In this document: positions 3,086-31,637 of the stretch, in pieces
Numbering within the stretch: position 1 is the stretch's first letter
Layout of the letters: the number at the start of each line of letters is the position of its first letter
Assembly (NCBI GenBank): GCA_003576845.1
Contig: QEVJ01000039.1
Location: 1 to 42,934, forward strand
DNA length: 42,934 nt
Direction of reading: 5' to 3'
From: Planctomycetota bacterium
GTDB taxonomy: Bacteria; Planctomycetota; Planctomycetia; Pirellulales; PLA5
The notes under the pieces: model-generated
Told to the model about the DNA's origin: nothing
Database searches by the model: none
What the model saw: only the letters and a program-made list of their open reading frames with translations
Made by a program: the position numbers and the translations under genes

Positions 3086-4879
3086 TTAGTACCGCAAGCC
3101 AATGAAGAACGAGAAGTTGCGAATCTTATCGCCGTCTTCGTGGGCGATCGGGAAGGCGAGGTCGAGGGCGATCGGCGCGGGGCCGAGGGCGGCGTTGCTG
3201 ATTCGCAGGCCGAAGCCGGGGGCGACACGGAAGTCTTCCCATTCGATCCTGTGGTCTTCCTCGACCGTGCCCGCGTCCACGAACACGACGCCGCGGAGCA
3301 TGTCGTCGGCGGTGATCGGGAACATGTACTCGGCGGTGGTAAGGAGCTGGAACTCGCCGCCGACGATCACGTCGCCGCTCTTGGGCGAAGCGCCGCGGAA
3401 GCCGAACCCGCGGATCGTCGAGTAGCCGCCGGCGTAGAAGTGGTCGTAGGCCGGCGTGTCGCTGCCGGCCCAACCGGCCTGGCCGCCGAGGTGCAGCACG
3501 TGCCGCCCGGAGCCGTCGATGCGTTCGGTGAGCGTGAAGAACTGGCGGGCTTCGAGCGTGGTGATCGGGTATTCGAACGAACCGAAGACCTGCTCGTGGC
3601 CGATCTCGACGATGTGACCTTGCGTGGGCAGGAAGGCGTCGTCGCGCGTGTCGTGGCCGAGCGACAGTTTCACGCCCAACAGCGTGTTCGAGCCGAGCAT
3701 GTCGGCGACCTCGGGCACGGGTGGGATGATCCGCGGATTCGAGATGTCGACGTCTTCGCCGCGAAACGCGGCCGTGACGGTCCAGTCCTTCGGCAATTGA
3801 TAGCCGAGAGCGACGCGCCCGCCCAAGCGGCCTTCGTCCCAATCGTAGAAGCGGCGATCGTAGTAAAAGCCCGACAAGCCGAGCGTGAACATCGAGTCGA
3901 ACAGATACGGCTCTTGCCACGAGACCATGTAACGGTGGACCGACGTGCCCGGCATGGCTTCGAGGCGGAAGCGTTGCCCGCCGCCGCGCCACGCATAGCC
4001 GTTGCGGACGTCGTCCCAACTGCGCGGAAATCGCTTCCAGTCGAAGTTCTGTTCGTCGATGACGAACTGGCCGATGAGGCCGGCGTCGGAGTTGATGCCC
4101 GCGCCGATCATCATCCGGCCGGTGCGGGTTTCGTGGACGACGGCGTCGAGGTCGACCGTCAAATGTGGCGGCACGATGGCATTGAGCGGATCGCCCATCA
4201 CCGACGCTCCCGACCCGGAATTGAGGCCGGGACCGGGGCGAATTCCGCCGGGAAACGGAGCGCCGGGAACGCTAACGGTCGTGCCGGGAACGTAACCTGG
4301 CGGCGGCGACGTCGTCGCTGAGCCGTTAGCGCCGGCTGCACCGTTCGAGCCGTAGCCCGTGCTATTGAACGACGGCGAGGCGTAGTTGGCCGGGGGACTG
4401 GTCGTCGCGCCGGCCGGCGGCAAATAGGGCGACGAGTATGCCGGCGGCGCGCTGTAGTTGGGATACGTGTTGGCGGCCGGAGCGGCAGGCGTTGCTGTGC
4501 CGCGATAGGGATTGCCCCAGGCCGCCGCGCCGGGCGTGTTGGGGTACGGATTGACCGGCTGCGTGAACTGAGCCGGCTCTACGCGGCTCGATTCGCCCGG
4601 CGCGACGGAACCGACCGTGCGGCCGCCGTAATACGTGCCGCTTGCATCGCCGTAGTCGGCATTTTGTGCTCGAACCGTGGGACGCTGCGCATCGTGCAGT
4701 TTCGGAGCGTTTGCTTCGTCGTTCGCGGGAACATCGACGCTCGGCGGGGCGAGCGACGCAAGCTCGCGATCCGACATCGGCGCGCGGTCGCCGTTCGGCG
4801 CGAGCAAGCCGCAACCGGCAAGCGGGACCAGCGCCGCGACGAGCAGCGTCCATCGGTGCAATTGCCGCAGTTGGGTCAC
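3086..4879 (-). CDS. Omp85/BamA-type outer-membrane beta-barrel with lipoprotein signal
   Basis: The chosen start is GTG at 4879-4877, preceded by AGGAG at 6-nt spacing; it gives 597 residues and shares GTGA with the stop of the upstream POTRA gene. Residues 1-23 form a lipoprotein signal ending in the lipobox LAGC (Cys23). A long Pro/Ser/Thr/Asn-rich linker runs to about residue 240. The rest is an Omp85-superfamily barrel (surface antigen D15 type), with the RGF motif in STIRGFGFRG and an aromatic C-terminal strand ending in FFIGLRY, the usual recognition signal for barrel assembly. BamA inserts beta-barrels into the outer membrane; here the barrel half is a separate polypeptide and must work with the POTRA protein beside it. 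No POTRA domain is visible in this protein. Confidence 0.85.
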   Translation of the reverse strand: MTQLRQLHRWTLLVAALVPLAGCGLLAPNGDRAPMSDRELASLAPPSVDVPANDEANAPKLHDAQRPTVRAQNADYGDASGTYYGGRTVGSVAPGESSRVEPAQFTQPVNPYPNTPGAAAWGNPYRGTATPAAPAANTYPNYSAPPAYSSPYLPPAGATTSPPANYASPSFNSTGYGSNGAAGANGSATTSPPPGYVPGTTVSVPGAPFPGGIRPGPGLNSGSGASVMGDPLNAIVPPHLTVDLDAVVHETRTGRMMIGAGINSDAGLIGQFVIDEQNFDWKRFPRSWDDVRNGYAWRGGGQRFRLEAMPGTSVHRYMVSWQEPYLFDSMFTLGLSGFYYDRRFYDWDEGRLGGRVALGYQLPKDWTVTAAFRGEDVDISNPRIIPPVPEVADMLGSNTLLGVKLSLGHDTRDDAFLPTQGHIVEIGHEQVFGSFEYPITTLEARQFFTLTERIDGSGRHVLHLGGQAGWAGSDTPAYDHFYAGGYSTIRGFGFRGASPKSGDVIVGGEFQLLTTAEYMFPITADDMLRGVVFVDAGTVEEDHRIEWEDFRVAPGFGLRISNAALGPAPIALDLAFPIAHEDGDKIRNFSFFIGLRY

Positions 4880-6705
4880 GGGTATCTCCTGGCGGCAGCG
4901 GCGGGAGGCGTTCGGTCGTAGTAGCTCTTCGGCGCATAACCGCTTGTCTGCGGCGTTGCGCGCGGTCCGCGCCATTGCGGCGACGGAGCATCTAGTGGGA
5001 CACCGCGCGGGCCATCGCGCGGGTCGATCGCCGCGGCCCGTTCGACCGGCTCACGCGGCAAACCGCGGACGATCGCGTACAGCACCGGCGGGCCGTCGGG
5101 CGTTTCGTAGACGTACACCAGATCGAGCGTGCGCGAATCGTCGTCGGGACTTTGACCGCGGACCTTGCGGACGCCGCCGCGGCCCACGACGCTCGTTTCG
5201 CCGTCTTCGGGCCGCGAAAACTTGATCTGCGGCATCTTGGTCGGGTCCTGCCGCTCGAAGACGCCGGCCCGCATCAGCCGCCGCTGGGCTTCGCGGATCT
5301 CGCGGATGTCGGCGATGTCGCCGGGCCGCAGGCGGATATTGTTCTTCACCACGTTGAGCCGCGTGTGGGGGCTTTCGCCTTCGATGAGCACGTTGATCTC
5401 GCCGATGCGATAGCGATCGCCTTCGACGACTTTGTAGACGAGGTCGAGCTGGCCCGGCTCTTCGAGGAATCGCGGGTCGGCCTTGACGTCGGCAAAGACG
5501 TATCCCTCGCCGCCGTACTCGTTCAGCATGGCAGCGACGTCTTTGTTCATTTTGCCCTGGTCGAAGAACTGGCCCGCGGTGAGCTGCAAATCCTTGTCGA
5601 GGCGGTTCGTGGCGATCTTCTCGTTGCCTTCGATCGCGACGCTGCGGATTTTGTAGCGTTCGCCCTCGCTGATGACGAACGTGAGCGTGAGCCACTCGCG
5701 GTCTTCGTCGTATTGGAGCATCCGGCGGACTTGAGCGCGGAAGTAGCCGAGGCTGCGGTAATAAGCCGTGAGCCGCTCTTCATCTTCTTCGATCTTCTTG
5801 TGGTCGACGTAGCCGCCGAAAACCCAAAGCACGCCGGGCTTGGACTGAATCTGCGTCTTGAGGCGGGCGTCGGTGACGATCGTATTCCCGACGAAGTTCG
5901 TCCAGGCGATCTTTTGCGACTGACCTTCGTTGAGCAGGTAGACCACACCCTTGTCGGTCGGCTTCGTGCCTTCGATGATCGAAACGGTCATGCGGTTGTA
6001 GCCGCGCTCGCGGTAGAACTCTTCGATCTTGCGGCGGCCTTCTTCGATTTCGTAGGGCGAGAGCGGCCCGCCGACCTTGAGGCCGACTTTTTCCAACAGC
6101 TTCTTGTCGCGAATCTGATCGTTGCCGACGATCTTGACGTATTCGATCGTGGGCCGTTCGACGACTTCGAACGTGATCTCGACGCCGTCGCCGACGAACT
6201 TGCTTTTCGGCCGGACATCGACGAACATGCCCGAGCGGTTGAGCTCCCGAACGTCGCGTTCGATCTGCTCTTCGTCGAAGGTGTGGCCCTCACGGACTTT
6301 GATTTTTTCGAGCACCTTCTTGCGCTCGATTCGCCGATTGCCGACGATTTCGAGCCTCGTGACGCGGCGGCCCGGGTTTCGGGCGTCGGCCGGAATGAGT
6401 TGCTTCCCGCCGTCGACCGGAAGCGCACGCCGGGCTTCGTCGAGCAGATTCGGGTCGCGGGCGGCGTCCAAATTCGGCGGAATCAGTTCGGGATCGAGCT
6501 TGCCCGGATTGTGCGGAGGCGTTTCGTAGTCCTGCGGGCCGAAACTCGCCGGGCGCTCGGCCGCGGCGCTCGGCTTCGGCGACGGGGCCGTCGCCTGAGC
6601 CTGGGCGGATTTGACGGGCGCAAGCATCAGAGCGACGACCGCCAGCACGAAGGCGACGGCGCGCGAATGCGGCGTGAGCGGTGCGGTGTGGCCGCGATCG
6701 GTCAT
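4876..6705 (-). CDS. Five-POTRA periplasmic protein, N-terminal half of a split BamA
   Basis: From ATG at 6705 this gives 609 residues with a signal peptide (hydrophobic VAFVLAVVALMLAPVKSAQA). After an Ala/Pro-rich linker come five consecutive POTRA-like units of about 75 residues, starting near RVTRLEIVGNRRI, TIEYVKIVGNDQI, KIAWTNFVGNTIV, RYKIRSVAIEGNEKI and RYRIGEINVLIEG. POTRA domains bind unfolded outer-membrane proteins in the periplasm. Canonical BamA carries them on the same chain as the barrel; this protein ends soon after the fifth and has no barrel. Its TGA overlaps the GTG of the barrel gene by four bases, so the two are translationally coupled. No clear ribosome binding site precedes ATG 6705; a longer frame to 6846 exists but lacks a better signal. 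Confidence 0.85.
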   Translation of the reverse strand: MTDRGHTAPLTPHSRAVAFVLAVVALMLAPVKSAQAQATAPSPKPSAAAERPASFGPQDYETPPHNPGKLDPELIPPNLDAARDPNLLDEARRALPVDGGKQLIPADARNPGRRVTRLEIVGNRRIERKKVLEKIKVREGHTFDEEQIERDVRELNRSGMFVDVRPKSKFVGDGVEITFEVVERPTIEYVKIVGNDQIRDKKLLEKVGLKVGGPLSPYEIEEGRRKIEEFYRERGYNRMTVSIIEGTKPTDKGVVYLLNEGQSQKIAWTNFVGNTIVTDARLKTQIQSKPGVLWVFGGYVDHKKIEEDEERLTAYYRSLGYFRAQVRRMLQYDEDREWLTLTFVISEGERYKIRSVAIEGNEKIATNRLDKDLQLTAGQFFDQGKMNKDVAAMLNEYGGEGYVFADVKADPRFLEEPGQLDLVYKVVEGDRYRIGEINVLIEGESPHTRLNVVKNNIRLRPGDIADIREIREAQRRLMRAGVFERQDPTKMPQIKFSRPEDGETSVVGRGGVRKVRGQSPDDDSRTLDLVYVYETPDGPPVLYAIVRGLPREPVERAAAIDPRDGPRGVPLDAPSPQWRGPRATPQTSGYAPKSYYDRTPPAAAARRYP

Positions 6706-8111: not shown

Positions 8112-9416
8112 CTACATTTTCTTGCCGATGCAGTATAAACGACGAGAGCCCTTGATGTAGATGCGGCCATTCGACACGGCCGGCGACGCGGCGCTGGGAT
8201 CATCGAGATCGCTCTCGGCGACGATGTCGAGCTTTTCGCCGGGGCGAACGACGACGCTGCGGCCGCCGGAGGCAAAGAACACGAGGCCGTCGGCCGTAGC
8301 GATCGGACTGGCCTGCATCGAAACGCCGGCGAGCCGCGCGGAGTACATCATTTTCCCGTCGGACCAGCGGGTGACTTCGAGCACGCCCGGGTTGTGCGTG
8401 CGAAACAGCAGGCCATCGGCGACGACGGGAGACGCGAGGCCCTCGGGAATGTTGCCAATGCGCCAATTTAGTCGTGGCTCGGCGACGTCGCCCTTGGCCG
8501 TCGCGTCGACGCAAACGCCGGGGCCGCCGCGGCCGCTGTCGGAGTAGACTCGGCCATCGCGATAGATCGGAGAGGTCACGTCGCCGGGCGTGTCGAACGA
8601 CCAGATCGGCTCGCCGTTCTTCGGGTCGATCGCTTGCAGCACGTTCGACGCGGCGACGAACATCCGGGGCTGTCCGTCGACGGTTGCGAACGTCGGCGTC
8701 GAGTGATTGAAGGCGACATTGGGGCGCGCCTGCTTCCAGACGACTTCGCCCGTGCGGCCGTCGTAGGCGGTAAGCGTCGCGTGTTTGTTGTTCTTGTCGG
8801 CGAGCAGGATAACGCGGTTCTCGAACGCGACGGGACTCGACGCAAACGCCACGTCGATCGAGGCGTGGTGCTCGATCGGCTTTTGCCAGAGGAGCTTGCC
8901 GTGCAGGTCGAGCGCGGCGAGCGTCGCGGAGCCGAACGCGGCGTAAACGCGCTCGCCGTCGGTCGCGGGCGTGGGCGCGGCATAACCGCCGCGGAGATCC
9001 GAGAGCGTCCACGGGCCGGCGGGCACAACGGTATCCCACAGCTCGCGGCCGTCCGCGGCGGCATAACACGTGACGTGTTGCTCGGGCACTTGCTTTTGCG
9101 AACCGTCGTTGGACCAATGGGCGGTCGTGACGATCACGCGGTCGCCCCAGACGATCGGACTGGATTGGTTGAAGTCGGGCTTGCCTTCGGCCACCGTAGG
9201 GCGCAGCGGGATGTGCCAAGCGATGTTCTCGCCCGTCGCGATGTTCCAAGTCGTGGGCAAATCGCGCTCCGCGGACTGGCCCATACCTCCGGGACCGCGG
9301 AAGCGGGGCCAGTTCTCGGCCAGGGCCGCGGACGGAATGAACTCGGCGGCGAGGACGAACGCGAAGAACGTCCACGAAGAACCGCAAAGGGGAACGTATA
9401 TACGACGTGGTCTCAT
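8112..9416 (-). CDS. Exported PQQ-binding-like beta-propeller protein
   Basis: The protein has 434 residues with an N-terminal signal (FFAFVLAAEFIPSAALA) followed directly by NWPRFRGPGGMG, the hallmark opening of the large planctomycete family of exported PQQ-like (pyrrolo-quinoline quinone) propeller proteins. Propeller repeats include KLLWQKPIEHHASI, GEVVWKQARP, NGEPIWSFDTPGDVTSPIY and KMMYSARLAGVSMQASP. No dehydrogenase active-site residues are recognisable, so binding of PQQ is not implied. Such proteins sit in the periplasm and often accompany polymer-degradation genes. The ATG at 9416 is the only start that keeps the signal peptide. It lies 87 bp upstream of the BNR-propeller gene on the same strand. 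Confidence 0.85.
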   Translation of the reverse strand: MRPRRIYVPLCGSSWTFFAFVLAAEFIPSAALAENWPRFRGPGGMGQSAERDLPTTWNIATGENIAWHIPLRPTVAEGKPDFNQSSPIVWGDRVIVTTAHWSNDGSQKQVPEQHVTCYAAADGRELWDTVVPAGPWTLSDLRGGYAAPTPATDGERVYAAFGSATLAALDLHGKLLWQKPIEHHASIDVAFASSPVAFENRVILLADKNNKHATLTAYDGRTGEVVWKQARPNVAFNHSTPTFATVDGQPRMFVAASNVLQAIDPKNGEPIWSFDTPGDVTSPIYRDGRVYSDSGRGGPGVCVDATAKGDVAEPRLNWRIGNIPEGLASPVVADGLLFRTHNPGVLEVTRWSDGKMMYSARLAGVSMQASPIATADGLVFFASGGRSVVVRPGEKLDIVAESDLDDPSAASPAVSNGRIYIKGSRRLYCIGKKM

Positions 9417-9738: not shown

Positions 9739-10608
9739 ATGGGCTTGTTCGCCGTTTTTCAGACGTCGCTTTCGGGAATCTCGCTGGCCGAAACCGCGCT
9801 CGACGTGGGCGCGAACAACCTCGCGAACCTGAGCACGCCGGGGTTCAAGGCTTCGCGGGTCGTGGCGGCGACGCAAACGCCGCAGACGCAATCGCGCGGG
9901 TCGGGACCGACGGGGCCCGAGGGCGGGACGAATCCCGTGCAGGTCGGCCTCGGGGCGTACGTCGCGGCGATCGAAGTCGATGCGAGCCAAGGCGCGATCG
10001 AACTGACCGGCGATCCGGCACAGCTCGCGTTGCAAGGACAGGGACTGTTTATCCTCCAAGGCCGCGACGGCGGGCGGACGTATACCCGCGACGGCCGGTT
10101 CGCACTCAATGCGGACGACGAACTGGTCGCCGGCGATGGATCGAGCGTATTGGGCTTCGGAGTGGGCGCGGATGGCGAGATCGACACGACGCAACTTCGG
10201 CCGCTAAAGATCAAGCTCGGTTCGTTCATCGCCACGCCGGCCGGTTCGGCGTCGCTGTTGGGATACAGCGTCACCCCGACGGGCCGCATCAAGGGACGGT
10301 ATTCCGACGGACAGTGGCGCAATCTGGGGCAGTTGAGGCTGGTGCGGTTCCCGAATCCTGCCGGACTCGAACAGCGCGGCGGCAACCGCTACGTCGAAGG
10401 TCCGGCGTCGGGCGCGGCGCTCGAGACCGATCCCGGCGGCGTGGCCGCGGCCACGATTCTGCCCGGAGCCATCGAACGTTCAAATACGGACGTCGGTCGA
10501 GAGTTGGTGAACTCGCTGCTATGGGACATGCACTTTCGGGCGAACGTGGCCGTGTCGACGACCGCGGGTTCGCTCTTGGGCGAGTTGCTTTCGCTGCGGC
10601 GGGCGTAA
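9739..10608 (+). CDS. Flagellar hook-basal body protein (FlgE/FlgF/FlgG family)
   Basis: The protein has 289 residues. The N-terminus (LDVGANNLANLSTPGFKAS) matches the flagellar rod/hook N-terminal motif, and the C-terminus (GAIERSNTDVGRELVNSLLW, ending near residue 289) matches the paired C-terminal motif; the two helices form a coiled coil in the axial structure. A central segment DPAQLALQGQGLFILQGRDG matches the FlgE/F/G middle domain. The length suits a rod protein (FlgF or FlgG) more than a hook. Which of the two cannot be decided here. It is exported by the flagellar type III system, so no signal peptide is expected or seen. No other flagellar gene is in the window. Confidence 0.85.
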   Translation: MGLFAVFQTSLSGISLAETALDVGANNLANLSTPGFKASRVVAATQTPQTQSRGSGPTGPEGGTNPVQVGLGAYVAAIEVDASQGAIELTGDPAQLALQGQGLFILQGRDGGRTYTRDGRFALNADDELVAGDGSSVLGFGVGADGEIDTTQLRPLKIKLGSFIATPAGSASLLGYSVTPTGRIKGRYSDGQWRNLGQLRLVRFPNPAGLEQRGGNRYVEGPASGAALETDPGGVAAATILPGAIERSNTDVGRELVNSLLWDMHFRANVAVSTTAGSLLGELLSLRRA

Positions 10609-25397: not shown

Positions 25398-28300
25398 TTA
25401 TCGTGCCGCCCGATCGATCAGCGAGTCGACGGCGCGGACGACGAGCCGCGTTCGTCCGGCAACGCTTCGCCGGGTTGCCGTTAGCCGGAAGCCTGCGTCG
25501 TCGTGCGATAAGGCGCACCGCGAGTCGAGAGCTCCGAGTACGACATCGCGGCGCGTCGCAGCGGCATCCTCGCGCTCGATGCGCCGGGAACGAACCACGA
25601 CCGCGCCCGCGGCGCTCGACGATGCCGGCGAAGGCGCGGCGGTTCCGAGCGACGTCTGGAGCGCTGCCAGGTCGGCCAGATTCGTGGCGCCGTCGCCGTT
25701 GATGTCGCCGCGGCCGCGGTGCGCGCCGGTCGCGCTGCCGAAGTTTTGGGCGAGTAGGGCGGCATCGAGTCGGTCGACCAGACCGTCGCCGTTGAAATCG
25801 CCCACGAGGGGAGCGGGATCGTCCGCGCCCGGCGAACCGCCGATGCGGGCGCTCGATCGCCAGTTGGCCGGATTGCCGTAGCTCGCGCTCGGGTCGATGA
25901 CGACGAGCGAGAAACCGTCGCCGTCGGTTTCCTTGTACCAGTCGTCGTCGTATGCAAATTCGTGGATCAACCCGCCAGCCTTGTCGCGGAGCGTTATCGT
26001 TTCGCCGGCATTGTCGAGCGCGCCGGTAAAGCCGCGTTCGGCGATCGCGGCGGCGGGCACGAGCGGATAGGCGGCCGCGAAGGCCGCCGGATTCTTGGCG
26101 ACCACGATGCGACCCAGCGGCGCGAGCATCCGATTTGCGTCGGTTTCGGCGAACGCGAATTCGCCCACGCCCTCGATCCACACGTCGGCCATATCGACGG
26201 CGACCGTGCCGCTCGTGTTGACGAGTTCGAGGAACTCGGTGTCTTCGATCGCACCCGGCGGGTTGTAGTAGATTTCGCTCACCCGCAGGGGCGACTCGAC
26301 GGCGAAGAACGCTTCGGTAAGCGCGCTCCACGTGCCGCCGGAGAGGACTCGCGACCGGATCGTGCCGGATTCGGCGAGGGTGACATCGCCCGTCACGGCG
26401 ATTGCGCTGGGGCTAACGGCTCCGCCCGGCAGTCGCGGATCGCTGCCGTCGGTCGTGTAGTAGCGCGTTCCGGCAGGGGCAGTAATCGCCAGATCGAAGC
26501 CGGCCTGAACCGTGCCGCCGTGCTGACTGAACGTCGGGGCGGCGACCGCGGGATACAAGCCTTCGTTGCGATAGATCGTCAGGAGGTTGTTCGTGCGGAA
26601 CGGGAAGTACGTGTTCAGCAAGCGATTCTGCTCCGCGATCCATTCGACGTCGCGGGTGAGCGGGTTGGCTTGCTTGAGATCGCCCCAGCGGGCCGACTCG
26701 GCGACGATCGCATTGTCGAGCGTCGCGGCGTGTTGCATCCACCGCGCGGCCGTATTCGCGGGCGTGAGCGCCCCGGCGTTGAACAGGTGTTTGTGAATGC
26801 GGTCGCCGAAGCGGACACGGAACTCTTCGATTTGCAGCAAGCTGGCGAGCATTCCGGTCGGATCGCTGCTCGGGCCAATCGCGTTCTGGCTGACGTTTTC
26901 CAGGATTCGCTCGACATCCCAAGCGTAGAGCCGCCAGGGCGCGTCGTTGGGTCCGCCGCCAACCGCCCGCCAGTTGCCGTCGTTCTTGAGGTCCTGGTTG
27001 CCGCCGTAGCGGTGCATGATGAACCAGTCGATGTAGTTGTCGACGTCGAGCCGCTGTTGGATCGCGTCCCAATTGCGGGCGGCAACGGCGGCGGCGAGCT
27101 CGTTCCAGCTCGTGGCGTTGCCGTCGGTGAAGACGAGGCCGTTGCGGGCGTCGTAGTCGTCTTCGGTTCCGCCAAAGTAGGCGGCGTAGTGCGAGGCTTC
27201 GGCCCGTTCGTGCATTTCGTAGACGCCCCAATAGAGGCCGTTGAGATAGAGGTGCACGTAGCGGCCGTAGCCCGCGGAAGGATCGCCCATCGCCCGCATC
27301 GTGTCGCGGGCCCACATTTCGCGGATCATGTCGCCGCGGTTGCGCTGGCCTTGGTCCCAATGAATCCACGAGTTGTTGTAGCGGGCGCGGAGGTGGACCG
27401 AGTCGAACCGCTCAACGGGCGAACCGTCGAACAGCGGGTATTCGAGGTCGCCTTCGAGCGGGACGTTGTTCGCGCCGACGAGCAGCTCGTTGCGGAACCG
27501 CAAGCTCATCGAGTGTTTGCCGTGTTCCGGGTTGCGGCTGGCGCCGCCTTGCATTCGCGCGCCGGCGTCGATCTGGAAGCCAACCGTGCCGTCGGGAAAG
27601 ATCAACTCGGCGGACGTGGGTTTTTCCTGAGCGCTCAAGGGATTCGTGTACAAGCCGCCGGCGCCGACGATGTCGGCCGGGTCGAATACGAGCGACAGGG
27701 CGGGCAATTCATCGAACCCGTCGCGAATGCGTTGTAGGTTGGCTGCATTGGCGGTCACCTGCGGATCGAATTCGTAATCGGCCGGCGTACCGTTCCACGA
27801 CGTCGGGAAACCCGCCGGAGCGATCGGCTGGTTAATCACATCGTCGACGAACAAGTACGTCTGCGTGTCGACGTTCGTCGGCGCAAGGCCCGGCTTGAAG
27901 GCCATCGCGCGGAGCGTGGTCGTGCGATTGACGGCGACGGTTGCCGAGGGGGGCGTATTGGCGTCGGGCGAAGGAACCTGCGTGCCGTTCGTCGGTGTGG
28001 GGAGCGAGCCGTTGGTCGTGTAGACGAGCGTCGCGCCGGGGGTATTGGACGTAATCGTCACGCTGAAGGGCGCGTCGTAATACCCGCGATCGGCGCTGAA
28101 CCGCGTATCGGCGACGAAGCCGGTGAACGTGGACGATTCGTTATTGGCCGCGCCGGGCGTGGGGATGTTGTAATACTTCGCCGCGCCGAGATCGTCGAGA
28201 CCGTAGGATACGTCGTTCACCTGGCGCGGGAACTCGGGCACGAACTCGTGAATCGCAACGCCCGTGCCACCGACAAGGGCCAGGTATTCGCCGTTGTTCT

Positions 28301-31300
28301 GAAGGCTGAAGTTGGCGTGCAGATAGCCGCGTTCGTCGAGCGCCGGGTCCGTAATACCGAGGCCCGAGGCAAACACGACCAGATAGCCCGACGCAGGAAT
28401 CGTCGTGCCGCCGGGGATCTGCCATTTGGCGGGCGTGTCGGGATCGTCGGTGAGGTAGAGTCCGCCGACGTTGATGGGCGACGGCGTGAAGTTGCGAATT
28501 TCGATCCAATCCGGCGAGAGCGTGCCGCCGGTGAAGGCGTCGCCGGCGGTCGCGCGCGTGCGCGTCGTGAGCGTGTCGCCGTTGTCGGCCATGAATTCGC
28601 TGATCCGCAGCGTCGGGGCCGTTGCCGTGGTGAACGATTCGCTCGTCGTGGCCCAGGCGCTGCCGGCGAGATTCGTGCCGAGCGCGCGGAAGTAGTAGGT
28701 CGCTTCGGGTGTAAGCCCCGTCACGCTGGCGGCGAAGGCGCCGCTTTGCAAGCCGACATCGACGGAGGATTGCCACGCCGCCGCGTTTTCGCCGCCGTCG
28801 GCCGGTCCGTAGAAGATCGTGACGGTCGGCGTGTCGTTGCCCGTGTTCGCGACGCGGCCGGCGAGTTGCGCAGAGAATGGACCGACGTTGGTCGCCGGGG
28901 CGTTCTCGACGGTCGGCGGACTTACGGCGAGTGTCGTGAACGCCTGCGTGGACGGCGACCAGGCGAGGCCGGCAACATTGATGGCCCGAGTGCGGTAGTA
29001 GTAGTCCGTCGCCGGCAAGAGGCCGGTGAGCAACTCGGTATATTCGCCGGACGGCACGTCGATGAGGACGATCGTGTTGTCCCACTGCGACGGGACAGTG
29101 CCGCCGTCGTTGTCGCCCCAATAGATCGTCACGTTCGCCGGGTCGCCGCCGTCGACGAGGTACGCGCCGATCCGCGCCGACGTGCCGGAGATGTCCGTCG
29201 GCGCAGCGTTCGTAACGGTCGCGGGTGCGACGATCGTGAATTGCGACGTGAACTCGGCGTTGGGGCGATTGTCGGTGCTTTCGAGCGCTCCGGGGGAGAT
29301 TCGCAACGTATACACGCCCGCTGCGAGTCCGGCGGGAAGCGTAAACGCGAGCGTATCGGCATCGACGACGTTCACGGCCGTCGCGGGAACGCCGTTCACC
29401 GTCAAATCGCTCGCCGCGACGGACGAGGCGAGCACAGGCAAGTTGAAATTCACCGTCGCCGTCGTGGGCGGCGTGGCGGTTCTCGCACCCGGTGCGGGTG
29501 TGATGCTCGTGACGCCTAGAAGCGTGAACTTCTCTCGCAATCGCACGCCGGTGAGGGCATAGCCTTTCGAGTCGTTCGCCGCGCCGATGGGATCGACCGC
29601 CGTGGGAATCGTTCCGGTGTACTGCGTCGAGACGATGTCGAAGCGGCCATCCGCGCCGGCGTCGATGTCGAGCCACTGGGCGACGAAGCCTTGCCCGGCG
29701 AGGTGATTCGAGCCGGTCCAGACGGCGACCTGGTTTGCGGCGAGACCCGCCGTCACGATGCCGACGCCCGCCGAATGCGCCGGGGTGAACGAATCGGCGC
29801 CGACGAGCGTGACGAGCGTCCAGCGGCGGGTGTAAGGCGTGTTCCCGCGGACGGCCGTGCCGGCAAAGTCGTAGGTCTTGTTCGGGTCGAGTCCGGTGAA
29901 GGCGTGCGTGTAGGTATCGGCGCCGTCGAGTTCGAGGCTCGTGCCCGTGCCGGTTGAGAAATCGACGAACCCTGCGAAAATGTTGGCGGCGTCGGTCCCC
30001 GCGGCGGGCACTCCGGATGCACCGGCATAGTTGATGCCGACGGCCGACGTGCTGAGCGTGATGCCGGTGGCCGCGCCGGTGGCGATGTTCTTGAGTAAGC
30101 CCGAGGCGACGCCATTGGCGGCGAATGTTGTGGCGCTCGGATGCGTTGCCGGTCCGGCGACGTGATCGTTGAACGCGACGACGTCGTCGACGGACTGGCT
30201 GAGCGTCGCGAAGGAGCCGGTCGCGGTCCAGGCGTCGCCGGCGGCGTTCGTGGCGCGGAAGCGGAAGTAATGCGTCGTTTGCGCGGCGAGTCCGGCAAGC
30301 ACCGTGCCGAACGCGGCCGGTTGCGTGCCGAGCGATACGGCGTTGTCCCAGTTGGCGGCGACCGCGCCGGCGTCGTTGTCGCCGTAGTAGAGCGTGACCG
30401 TGTTTGGCGCGTTTCCGGTGCTGGTGATCTGGCCCGAGAGTTCGGCCGACGTGGACGTGACGTTCGCAGCGTCGTTGGCGGTGATCGCCGGGAGCGACAA
30501 GGCGGCGGTCGTGAAGGACAGCGACGGTTCGGCGAAGTGCTCGCCGGCGGAATTCACGCCGCGGATCGTTACGTAATACGTCGTGCTCGGCTGCAAGTTG
30601 GAAAGCGGCAAGCTGAACGTGCCGAACTGTAAGCCGGCGTCGACGGAGTTCTGCCACGCGGCGGCGTTCGTGCCGCCGTCGGTCGTGCCGTAGTAGACCG
30701 TCACCGTCGGGCCTTCGCCGCCGGTGTCGGCCACTTCTCCGCCGTAAACGGCCGAGACCGCGTCGATGCTCGATACCGAGCCGTTGAGCATGACCGGCGG
30801 CGTGGCGGCCGTGTCCATGTTCGCGAGCCAGTTGATAGCGTTCGTGAATAGCGTGCGGCCGTCGGAGGTGAGCGAGTTGAAGGTGTTGTCGGTCATCGGG
30901 AACATGACACGGCGACCGGCGGCGGGCGAAACGCCGCTGGCCGGATCGAGCGGTTGGCCCGCGTCAGCAATGAAGATGGCCGCGTTTCCGGCGACGGACG
31001 CGCCGCCGGTCGACGCGACGCCGTTGGCCGCGGTGGCGACCGTCGTCAGGCCCGGATAGACCGACGGCGTGCTGAGCGTTTCGGGACCGGACGCTGTGAG
31101 GAACTGAATCGTGCCGGAAAGTCCGGCGGTGATGGGATGGTTCTGCGCGATGGTTAGCTGGGTCGTCGAGACCGATTTGGTCATGACGGCGGTTGCCAGG
31201 CCGAATTCGCCGGCGGCGTTGTCCATGACGGCTTCTTCCCAGTTGAGAATGCCGACGGGGGATGTGTGGTACTTGTTTCGCAGGGTGCCGGAAGCGGGCG

Positions 31301-31637
31301 TGCTCGACAGCACGAGCACGTCGATGCCGACTAAATCGGTCGTGTTGTTGGCGGCGCTAGCTTGTTTGTACGCGACGTTCTGCGCGCCGAACGTCGACGT
31401 GAGATGGCTCATCACGGCGGGATCGGCGCCGAACGTCGCCCCGGCGTCGTTACCAAGGAAGAGAATCTTCGGCGTGCCGGCGAGGAGCATCCGCGGTTCG
31501 AGTGCTTCGCCTAGGAGCCGCGAACGCTTGGATAGACGGGTGCTTCGACGACCGCGCGCGCAAGCGGCGGCTTGTCGTGTGCGCGAGTGAACCTGGGGCG
31601 AGAACGCACCGGCAAGCCGCCACGGGAAACCCAGCAT
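25398..31637 (-). CDS. Giant exported LEPR-XLL protein with lamin-tail, CotH and dockerin-like domains
   Basis: ATG at 31637 follows GGGAGG at 5 nt; 2079 residues. The N-terminus carries the LEPR-XLL planctomycete signature (LEPRMLLAG, residues 47-55). Residues about 55-275 look like a ThuA/GATase-like fold. Then come fibronectin-III-like units (about 280-480, 805-1005), an Ig-like unit (about 705-805), a lamin-tail domain (from about 1005), a chitobiase-type beta domain (about 1180-1265), a CotH kinase-like domain (about 1285-1690), a second chitobiase-type unit, and a second lamin-tail domain (to about 1945). The C-terminus has a dockerin-like EF-hand pair (GDFNGDGLVDRLDAALLAQN). It is a surface or secreted protein; CotH proteins phosphorylate spore-coat or other proteins, but the active residues were not verified. 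Confidence 0.85.
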   Translation of the reverse strand: MLGFPWRLAGAFSPQVHSRTRQAAACARGRRSTRLSKRSRLLGEALEPRMLLAGTPKILFLGNDAGATFGADPAVMSHLTSTFGAQNVAYKQASAANNTTDLVGIDVLVLSSTPASGTLRNKYHTSPVGILNWEEAVMDNAAGEFGLATAVMTKSVSTTQLTIAQNHPITAGLSGTIQFLTASGPETLSTPSVYPGLTTVATAANGVASTGGASVAGNAAIFIADAGQPLDPASGVSPAAGRRVMFPMTDNTFNSLTSDGRTLFTNAINWLANMDTAATPPVMLNGSVSSIDAVSAVYGGEVADTGGEGPTVTVYYGTTDGGTNAAAWQNSVDAGLQFGTFSLPLSNLQPSTTYYVTIRGVNSAGEHFAEPSLSFTTAALSLPAITANDAANVTSTSAELSGQITSTGNAPNTVTLYYGDNDAGAVAANWDNAVSLGTQPAAFGTVLAGLAAQTTHYFRFRATNAAGDAWTATGSFATLSQSVDDVVAFNDHVAGPATHPSATTFAANGVASGLLKNIATGAATGITLSTSAVGINYAGASGVPAAGTDAANIFAGFVDFSTGTGTSLELDGADTYTHAFTGLDPNKTYDFAGTAVRGNTPYTRRWTLVTLVGADSFTPAHSAGVGIVTAGLAANQVAVWTGSNHLAGQGFVAQWLDIDAGADGRFDIVSTQYTGTIPTAVDPIGAANDSKGYALTGVRLREKFTLLGVTSITPAPGARTATPPTTATVNFNLPVLASSVAASDLTVNGVPATAVNVVDADTLAFTLPAGLAAGVYTLRISPGALESTDNRPNAEFTSQFTIVAPATVTNAAPTDISGTSARIGAYLVDGGDPANVTIYWGDNDGGTVPSQWDNTIVLIDVPSGEYTELLTGLLPATDYYYRTRAINVAGLAWSPSTQAFTTLAVSPPTVENAPATNVGPFSAQLAGRVANTGNDTPTVTIFYGPADGGENAAAWQSSVDVGLQSGAFAASVTGLTPEATYYFRALGTNLAGSAWATTSESFTTATAPTLRISEFMADNGDTLTTRTRATAGDAFTGGTLSPDWIEIRNFTPSPINVGGLYLTDDPDTPAKWQIPGGTTIPASGYLVVFASGLGITDPALDERGYLHANFSLQNNGEYLALVGGTGVAIHEFVPEFPRQVNDVSYGLDDLGAAKYYNIPTPGAANNESSTFTGFVADTRFSADRGYYDAPFSVTITSNTPGATLVYTTNGSLPTPTNGTQVPSPDANTPPSATVAVNRTTTLRAMAFKPGLAPTNVDTQTYLFVDDVINQPIAPAGFPTSWNGTPADYEFDPQVTANAANLQRIRDGFDELPALSLVFDPADIVGAGGLYTNPLSAQEKPTSAELIFPDGTVGFQIDAGARMQGGASRNPEHGKHSMSLRFRNELLVGANNVPLEGDLEYPLFDGSPVERFDSVHLRARYNNSWIHWDQGQRNRGDMIREMWARDTMRAMGDPSAGYGRYVHLYLNGLYWGVYEMHERAEASHYAAYFGGTEDDYDARNGLVFTDGNATSWNELAAAVAARNWDAIQQRLDVDNYIDWFIMHRYGGNQDLKNDGNWRAVGGGPNDAPWRLYAWDVERILENVSQNAIGPSSDPTGMLASLLQIEEFRVRFGDRIHKHLFNAGALTPANTAARWMQHAATLDNAIVAESARWGDLKQANPLTRDVEWIAEQNRLLNTYFPFRTNNLLTIYRNEGLYPAVAAPTFSQHGGTVQAGFDLAITAPAGTRYYTTDGSDPRLPGGAVSPSAIAVTGDVTLAESGTIRSRVLSGGTWSALTEAFFAVESPLRVSEIYYNPPGAIEDTEFLELVNTSGTVAVDMADVWIEGVGEFAFAETDANRMLAPLGRIVVAKNPAAFAAAYPLVPAAAIAERGFTGALDNAGETITLRDKAGGLIHEFAYDDDWYKETDGDGFSLVVIDPSASYGNPANWRSSARIGGSPGADDPAPLVGDFNGDGLVDRLDAALLAQNFGSATGAHRGRGDINGDGATNLADLAALQTSLGTAAPSPASSSAAGAVVVRSRRIEREDAAATRRDVVLGALDSRCALSHDDAGFRLTATRRSVAGRTRLVVRAVDSLIDRAAR

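Follow-up and report, generated by a model that had tools for sequence, protein, structure and literature searches.

A planctomycete BamA encoded as two exported halves, cut inside POTRA5 and probably rejoined by strand complementation

We describe a pair of adjacent genes, bamA-N and bamA-C, in a 42,934-nucleotide stretch of DNA from a Planctomycetota bacterium (assembly GCA_003576845.1, contig QEVJ01000039.1), hereafter the window. On sequence evidence, the pair is the BamA of this genome, made as two separately exported polypeptides, a POTRA half and a barrel half. Alignments place the cut inside POTRA5, so that the first protein contains four complete POTRAs and one without its last strand, which is carried by the barrel protein. 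The two halves probably rejoin by strand complementation of POTRA5, the likeliest joining mode because the cut falls inside this domain. BamA occurs in diderms with this type of outer membrane, and in the well-studied BamAs the POTRAs and the barrel form a single chain. As far as the open-access literature shows, a two-chain BamA cut inside POTRA5 is previously undescribed.

Gene structure and export signals

All features of the pair lie on the minus strand. The POTRA half is encoded by bamA-N (4876–6705; 609 amino acids, ATG at 6705, stop at 4876), and its product begins with a Sec signal peptide of the signal-peptidase-I-like type (residues 1–36, with cleavage between KSAQA and QA; 6598–6705). 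N-termini of the same type are likewise present in the POTRA-half homologues. The barrel half is encoded by bamA-C (3086–4879; 597 amino acids, GTG at 4879, stop at 3086) and is a predicted lipoprotein, with the lipobox LAGC (L20-A-G-C23) closing its signal peptide (4811–4879), where the congener has MSGC; all export signals were judged by eye and by pattern. An AGGAG ribosome binding site (4886–4890) lies 6 nt upstream of the GTG, and the 4-base overlap GTGA (4876–4879) contains both the barrel-gene start codon and the POTRA-gene stop codon. The junction GCCAGGAGATACCCGTGACCC is identical in the congener (L067/L068 of G300, a metagenome-assembled genome that is the second genome of the window's genus), which has the same Shine–Dalgarno sequence and GTG overlap and retains both reading frames. 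The signal peptide of the barrel half is followed by a disordered linker of ~200 amino acids (residues 24–241; 4157–4810). An initial annotation of the window had described a BamA encoded by two genes, a barrel gene starting at GTG in a 4-base overlap behind a ribosome binding site, and a lipobox followed by a long Pro/Ser-rich linker; these features are borne out by our analysis, the linker being Pro/Ala/Ser/Gly-rich. Because each half has its own export signal, the halves would meet outside the cytoplasm, as that annotation also held; their association there in a complex is what we infer.

The ratio of nonsynonymous to synonymous substitution rates (dN/dS) against the congener is 0.09 for the whole POTRA half, with 0.05 for its POTRA domains. 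For the whole barrel half it is 0.13, the barrel itself giving 0.06 and the linker 0.21; these values are approximate owing to high synonymous distances (dS about 1.0–1.4). Both genes are, by these ratios, under strong purifying selection. A sequencing or assembly frameshift, or a fused gene in decay, would fit a window that is a draft contig and relatives that show one continuous frame. By comparison, the congener repeats the Shine–Dalgarno sequence, the overlap and the lipobox, the folded parts of both proteins are strongly constrained, and separate genes with their own start and export signal are present in 42 genomes of five families. This explanation, of which the initial annotation had called a recent frameshift unlikely, is excluded by the conserved junction and the purifying selection in the congener, and we give it practically no weight.

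The two halves match one BamA

The POTRA half contains five PF07244 matches (Pfam; whole-protein E-value 4.3e-57), and the barrel half contains a PF01103 match at residues 297–596 (Pfam; E-value 5.8e-49). The POTRA array (POTRA1–4 and POTRA5 minus its last strand, residues 115–499; 5209–6363) also matches 9cmw (phmmer, 1.9e-28), and the AlphaFold model and the alignment show a 16-stranded Omp85 barrel with the loop-6 motif IRGF at residues 254–596 (3092–4120). In the BamA family model TIGR03303 (741 positions), positions 3–376 are matched by residues 115–489 of the POTRA half and positions 385–739 by residues 241–595 of the barrel half, with no overlap between the two. Because this coverage is complementary, the two halves together correspond to one BamA. 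The best Foldseek matches of two models, that of the barrel half and that of a fused orthologue (L113), are BamA, and the best VIA matches are likewise BamA. The genome (7.05 Mb, 99% complete) contains no second Omp85 barrel and no further PF07244 protein at E-values up to 10; the separate complete BamA elsewhere in the genome that the initial annotation had named as a possible refutation was thus not found. A BamD-like match above the family cut-off is present.

The plan of five POTRAs and a 16-stranded barrel, the IRGF motif and the status of sole Omp85 of the genome are features in common with BamA (TIGR03303/NF008287; E. coli structures such as 5d0o). The differences from it are the presence of two polypeptides, cut in POTRA5 between β2 and β3, and the lipoprotein signal of the window's barrel. 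In addition, neither half alone reaches the 297-bit cut-off of TIGR03303 (POTRA half, 240 bits; barrel half, 143 bits), and annotation may for this reason miss BamA in such genomes.

The same two genes might instead encode independent proteins that do not combine into a BamA: a POTRA-less Omp85 barrel lipoprotein serving a separate function, and a POTRA protein acting as chaperone or scaffold in the periplasm. Omp85 proteins that have no POTRA (noNterm) do occur, and Sam50 without its POTRA still binds and assembles substrates (PMC4104836). However, the genome would then have no BamA, the halves match complementary, non-overlapping parts of a single family model, and the two genes share a 4-base overlap in the window's genus and are adjacent and in the same order in all 42 split genomes seen. 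We therefore regard independent proteins as very unlikely.

Position of the cut within POTRA5

The fifth PF07244 match of the POTRA half stops early, covering model positions 1–62 of 79, and the protein ends its POTRA region after strand β2, so that the fifth POTRA is incomplete there. This refines the initial annotation, which had placed five POTRAs on this protein: five matches are present, but the fifth lacks its last strand. A 774-position profile built from 22 planctomycete BamAs that lack the linker stops at positions 397–402 on every POTRA half and starts at positions 406–422 on every barrel half. In the linker-less BamA L019, POTRA5 β3 leads straight into barrel strand 1 (RDVLIEVKE-QNTGSVSFGAG), and its counterpart in the window (VDLDAVVHE-TRTGRMMIGAG) sits on the barrel protein, with the β3 segment VDLDAVVHE at residues 242–250 (4130–4156). 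Consistent with this, in the profile alignment to the solved BamA the barrel part likewise opens with the β3 strand. In the family f2, in which the split is general (see below), many POTRA halves end a few residues past β2 (e.g., L092, ..PDIIVQPNDER at the stop), leaving no strand for POTRA5, and the barrel halves retain the β3 segment ahead of barrel strand 1.

Our models are predictions of single chains. In the AlphaFold model of the barrel half, the 16 strands at residues 254–596 are predicted with high confidence, the tail at residues 42–235 is disordered, with a predicted local distance difference test (pLDDT) score under 50, and residues 242–250 form no strand when the half is modelled alone. 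In the model of the fused orthologue L113, five POTRAs are followed by a disordered loop at residues 430–574, and β3 is a high-confidence strand at residues 578–586, before barrel strand 1. The VIA alignment of the L113 barrel start with E. coli BamA has a constant offset of 166 (589 to 423 and 592 to 426); therefore, residues 578–586 of L113 correspond to residues 412–420 of E. coli BamA, whose POTRA5 we take to span about 347–421.

Proposed assembly of the two-chain BamA

In the assembly that we propose, the POTRA half would cross the inner membrane through Sec and be set free in the periplasm. The barrel half would leave the cytoplasm as a lipoprotein, held at the outer membrane by its lipid and its disordered tail, with its 16-stranded barrel lying in the membrane. 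POTRA5 would be rebuilt from both proteins, with β1-α1-α2-β2 supplied by the POTRA half and β3 by the barrel half, and the POTRA half would dock by accepting the barrel's β3, which runs directly into barrel strand 1. Strand complementation of this kind would re-create the normal POTRA-to-barrel geometry although no peptide bond joins the chains, and the pair would work as one BamA, presumably the essential outer-membrane protein insertase.

Several points weigh against this assembly. The genome is a draft of 289 contigs, and a second copy is conceivable in the missing ~1%. The models are of single chains rather than of the complex. Furthermore, a strand-like stretch in the tail of the window's POTRA half, RTLDLVYVYE (residues 527–536; 5098–5127), could close POTRA5 itself; it stands soon after the motif RGQSPD (motif 1; residues 516–521; 5143–5160) and has counterparts in many fused relatives, in which a VIDLxLxGxW stretch follows RGQSPD.

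The last point supports the main competitor, namely that RTLDLVYVYE completes POTRA5 within the POTRA half, whose docking on the barrel half would then depend on different contacts or on adaptors recognizing the R[GA]Q motifs of the two tails. Split pairs do retain these motifs at both places, with 14 observed versus 0.6 expected in the POTRA tails and 17 versus 2.1 in the barrel heads. By comparison, the strand-like stretch is lost or absent in many POTRA halves of f2, whereas the β3 segment is retained; motif 1 and the POTRA tail are themselves lost in many f2 genera; and the confidence of the fused model is low at the substitute strand (residues 461–465, pLDDT about 36) but high at β3. A substitute strand thus appears rather unlikely. 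Strand complementation could also take the form of a donor-strand exchange: before assembly, a substitute strand from its own chain would close the POTRA half, to be given up for the barrel's β3 on docking. Assembly of the insertase would then be regulated and reversible, with the RGQSP motifs as docking or processing sites; we consider this elaboration quite improbable.

Linker and R[GA]Q motifs

Besides motif 1, the window has a second motif, RAQN (motif 2; residues 70–73; 4661–4672), which lies in the linker of the barrel half, is conserved in L068 and is the counterpart of V-R-G/A-Q in the fused relatives. R[GA]Q(S/N..) motifs, mostly RGQSP, occur 43 times in 24 fused loops versus 2.4 times in shuffles; loop homology explains part of the R[GA]Q excess, and the shuffles ignore relatedness.

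R[GA]QSP also occurs outside BamA. An exported thioredoxin and trypsin-like protein (L130/L169; G000:C110:26404-27939) is matched in all 39 searched genomes of the order, and 11 of 24 relatives examined contain R[GA]QSP in the interdomain linker (0.12 expected); its homologues include L171, L174, L175, L178, L180, L184, L185, L190, L194 and L198. R[GA]QSP is a linker motif common to the BamA loops and to this envelope protein. Trypsin-like cleavage after the Arg of RGQSP as the reason for the motif is only an idea.

Distribution and history of the split

The initial annotation had suggested comparing gene structure across planctomycete genomes, and our comparison reveals that the split is family-wide in f2 and apparently recurrent. 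The split is present in all 37 f2 genomes in which both genes are visible, in two f1 genomes (G300 and that of the window), in two genomes of f71, in one of f72 and in one of f3 (G415), and BamA is fused in 38 other genomes of the order. Apparent splits in f70 (G335 and G327) and in G423 of f3 were set aside, the barrel lying at a contig end. Separately, seven genomes of the order (G297, G320, G322, G384, G436, G447 and G465; 91–99% complete) gave no Omp85 match, probably owing to contig gaps.

Among fused relatives, those of the order and those of f7 contain a loop of roughly 150–440 amino acids between β2 and β3 of POTRA5; f8 also has the loop, and f9 and the other classes examined are without it. 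These fused long-loop BamAs (L100–L123) are orthologues of the split pairs, with a disordered insertion carrying R[GA]QSP at the same site, and differ in being one unbroken chain of ~940–1430 codons. The long linker pointed out in the initial annotation is thus present on the barrel half but predates the split. These fused intermediates offer a plausible route from one gene to two. In our proposal, a long disordered loop would have grown first between POTRA5 β2 and β3 in planctomycete ancestors, and the chain would then have been cut within the loop, apparently repeatedly, with each barrel half acquiring an export signal.

On trees built from POTRA plus barrel, the split state requires about four changes, of which at least two to three are forced by well supported branches. 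A tree constrained to unite all split rows in one clade is disfavoured (approximately unbiased test, p-AU 0.02), the group being defined by the trait and not derived from the tree. A single origin of the split is disfavoured by this test and by the state changes, and the split apparently arose more than once. For the history alone, and compatibly with strand complementation, a single split in the ancestor of the order with several later re-fusions might be considered, as the state changes can be read both ways and the backbone support is weak. However, fused BamA with the loop is the state of the outgroups (f7 and f8) and of most families in the order, and each re-fusion would need a clean loss of the stop, the start and the lipobox. 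The p-AU value also speaks against it, although re-fusion needs no single clade. Repeated splitting is preferred, and the re-fusion history seems unlikely.

The barrel signals vary among the split pairs. Lipobox-like signals are found in f1, f72, f71, G415 of f3 and most f2 genera, and signal-peptidase-I-type signals are found in g4, g260 (two of three genomes), g263, g268 and g291. Because some genera have the latter type, the constant feature of split barrels is an export signal, with the lipid a common one. The lipoprotein-anchored barrel of the initial annotation therefore holds for the window and is common among split barrels without extending to all of them.

Comparison with known systems

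The window's barrel half, with its lipobox cysteine C23, resembles TamL, the lipoprotein TamA of Bacteroidota (PMC12045153; Omp85 class Lipo, PMC4104836), in being an Omp85 barrel chain with a lipid-anchored N-terminus. TamL differs in having POTRAs on the lipidated chain, whereas the window's lipoprotein carries the β3 segment only and no POTRA domain. The TamL model NF052279 scores 17 bits with the barrel half and 54 bits with the POTRA half, against a cut-off of 400. Like the POTRA-less Omp85 proteins (noNterm and POTRA-deleted Sam50), the barrel chain has no POTRA domains of its own; unlike these, it carries the last POTRA strand and has its POTRAs encoded by the adjacent gene.

Speth 2012 lists planctomycete BamA from BLAST, with POTRA or a split unmentioned (PMC3422733). 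The Omp85 classes listed by Heinz 2014 include lipoprotein and POTRA-less types but no split type, and planctomycetes are unmentioned in its main text (PMC4104836). A split BamA, or the BamA of Rhodopirellula or Pirellula as split, was not found in the open-access literature, most subscription journals lying outside it. A family with a two-chain BamA provides a natural test of whether the covalent POTRA5–barrel link is needed for substrate hand-over, and the split pairs offer separately expressible halves for structural work and reconstitution.

Neighbouring genes

About 1.3 kb upstream of the bamA pair, positions 8112–9416 of the minus strand encode a PQQ/BamB-like β-propeller (PF13360). Its nearness may mean nothing, because planctomycetes have many such paralogues (Tuwongella immobilis has 28; PMC8567305). 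At 25398–31637 of the minus strand, a 2079-amino-acid protein contains lamin-tail, CotH kinase, chitobiase-C-like, fibronectin III and dockerin domains. No other flagellar gene was recognized among the few neighbours scanned around 9739–10608 of the plus strand, which encodes a flagellar rod/hook protein of the FlgE/F/G type.

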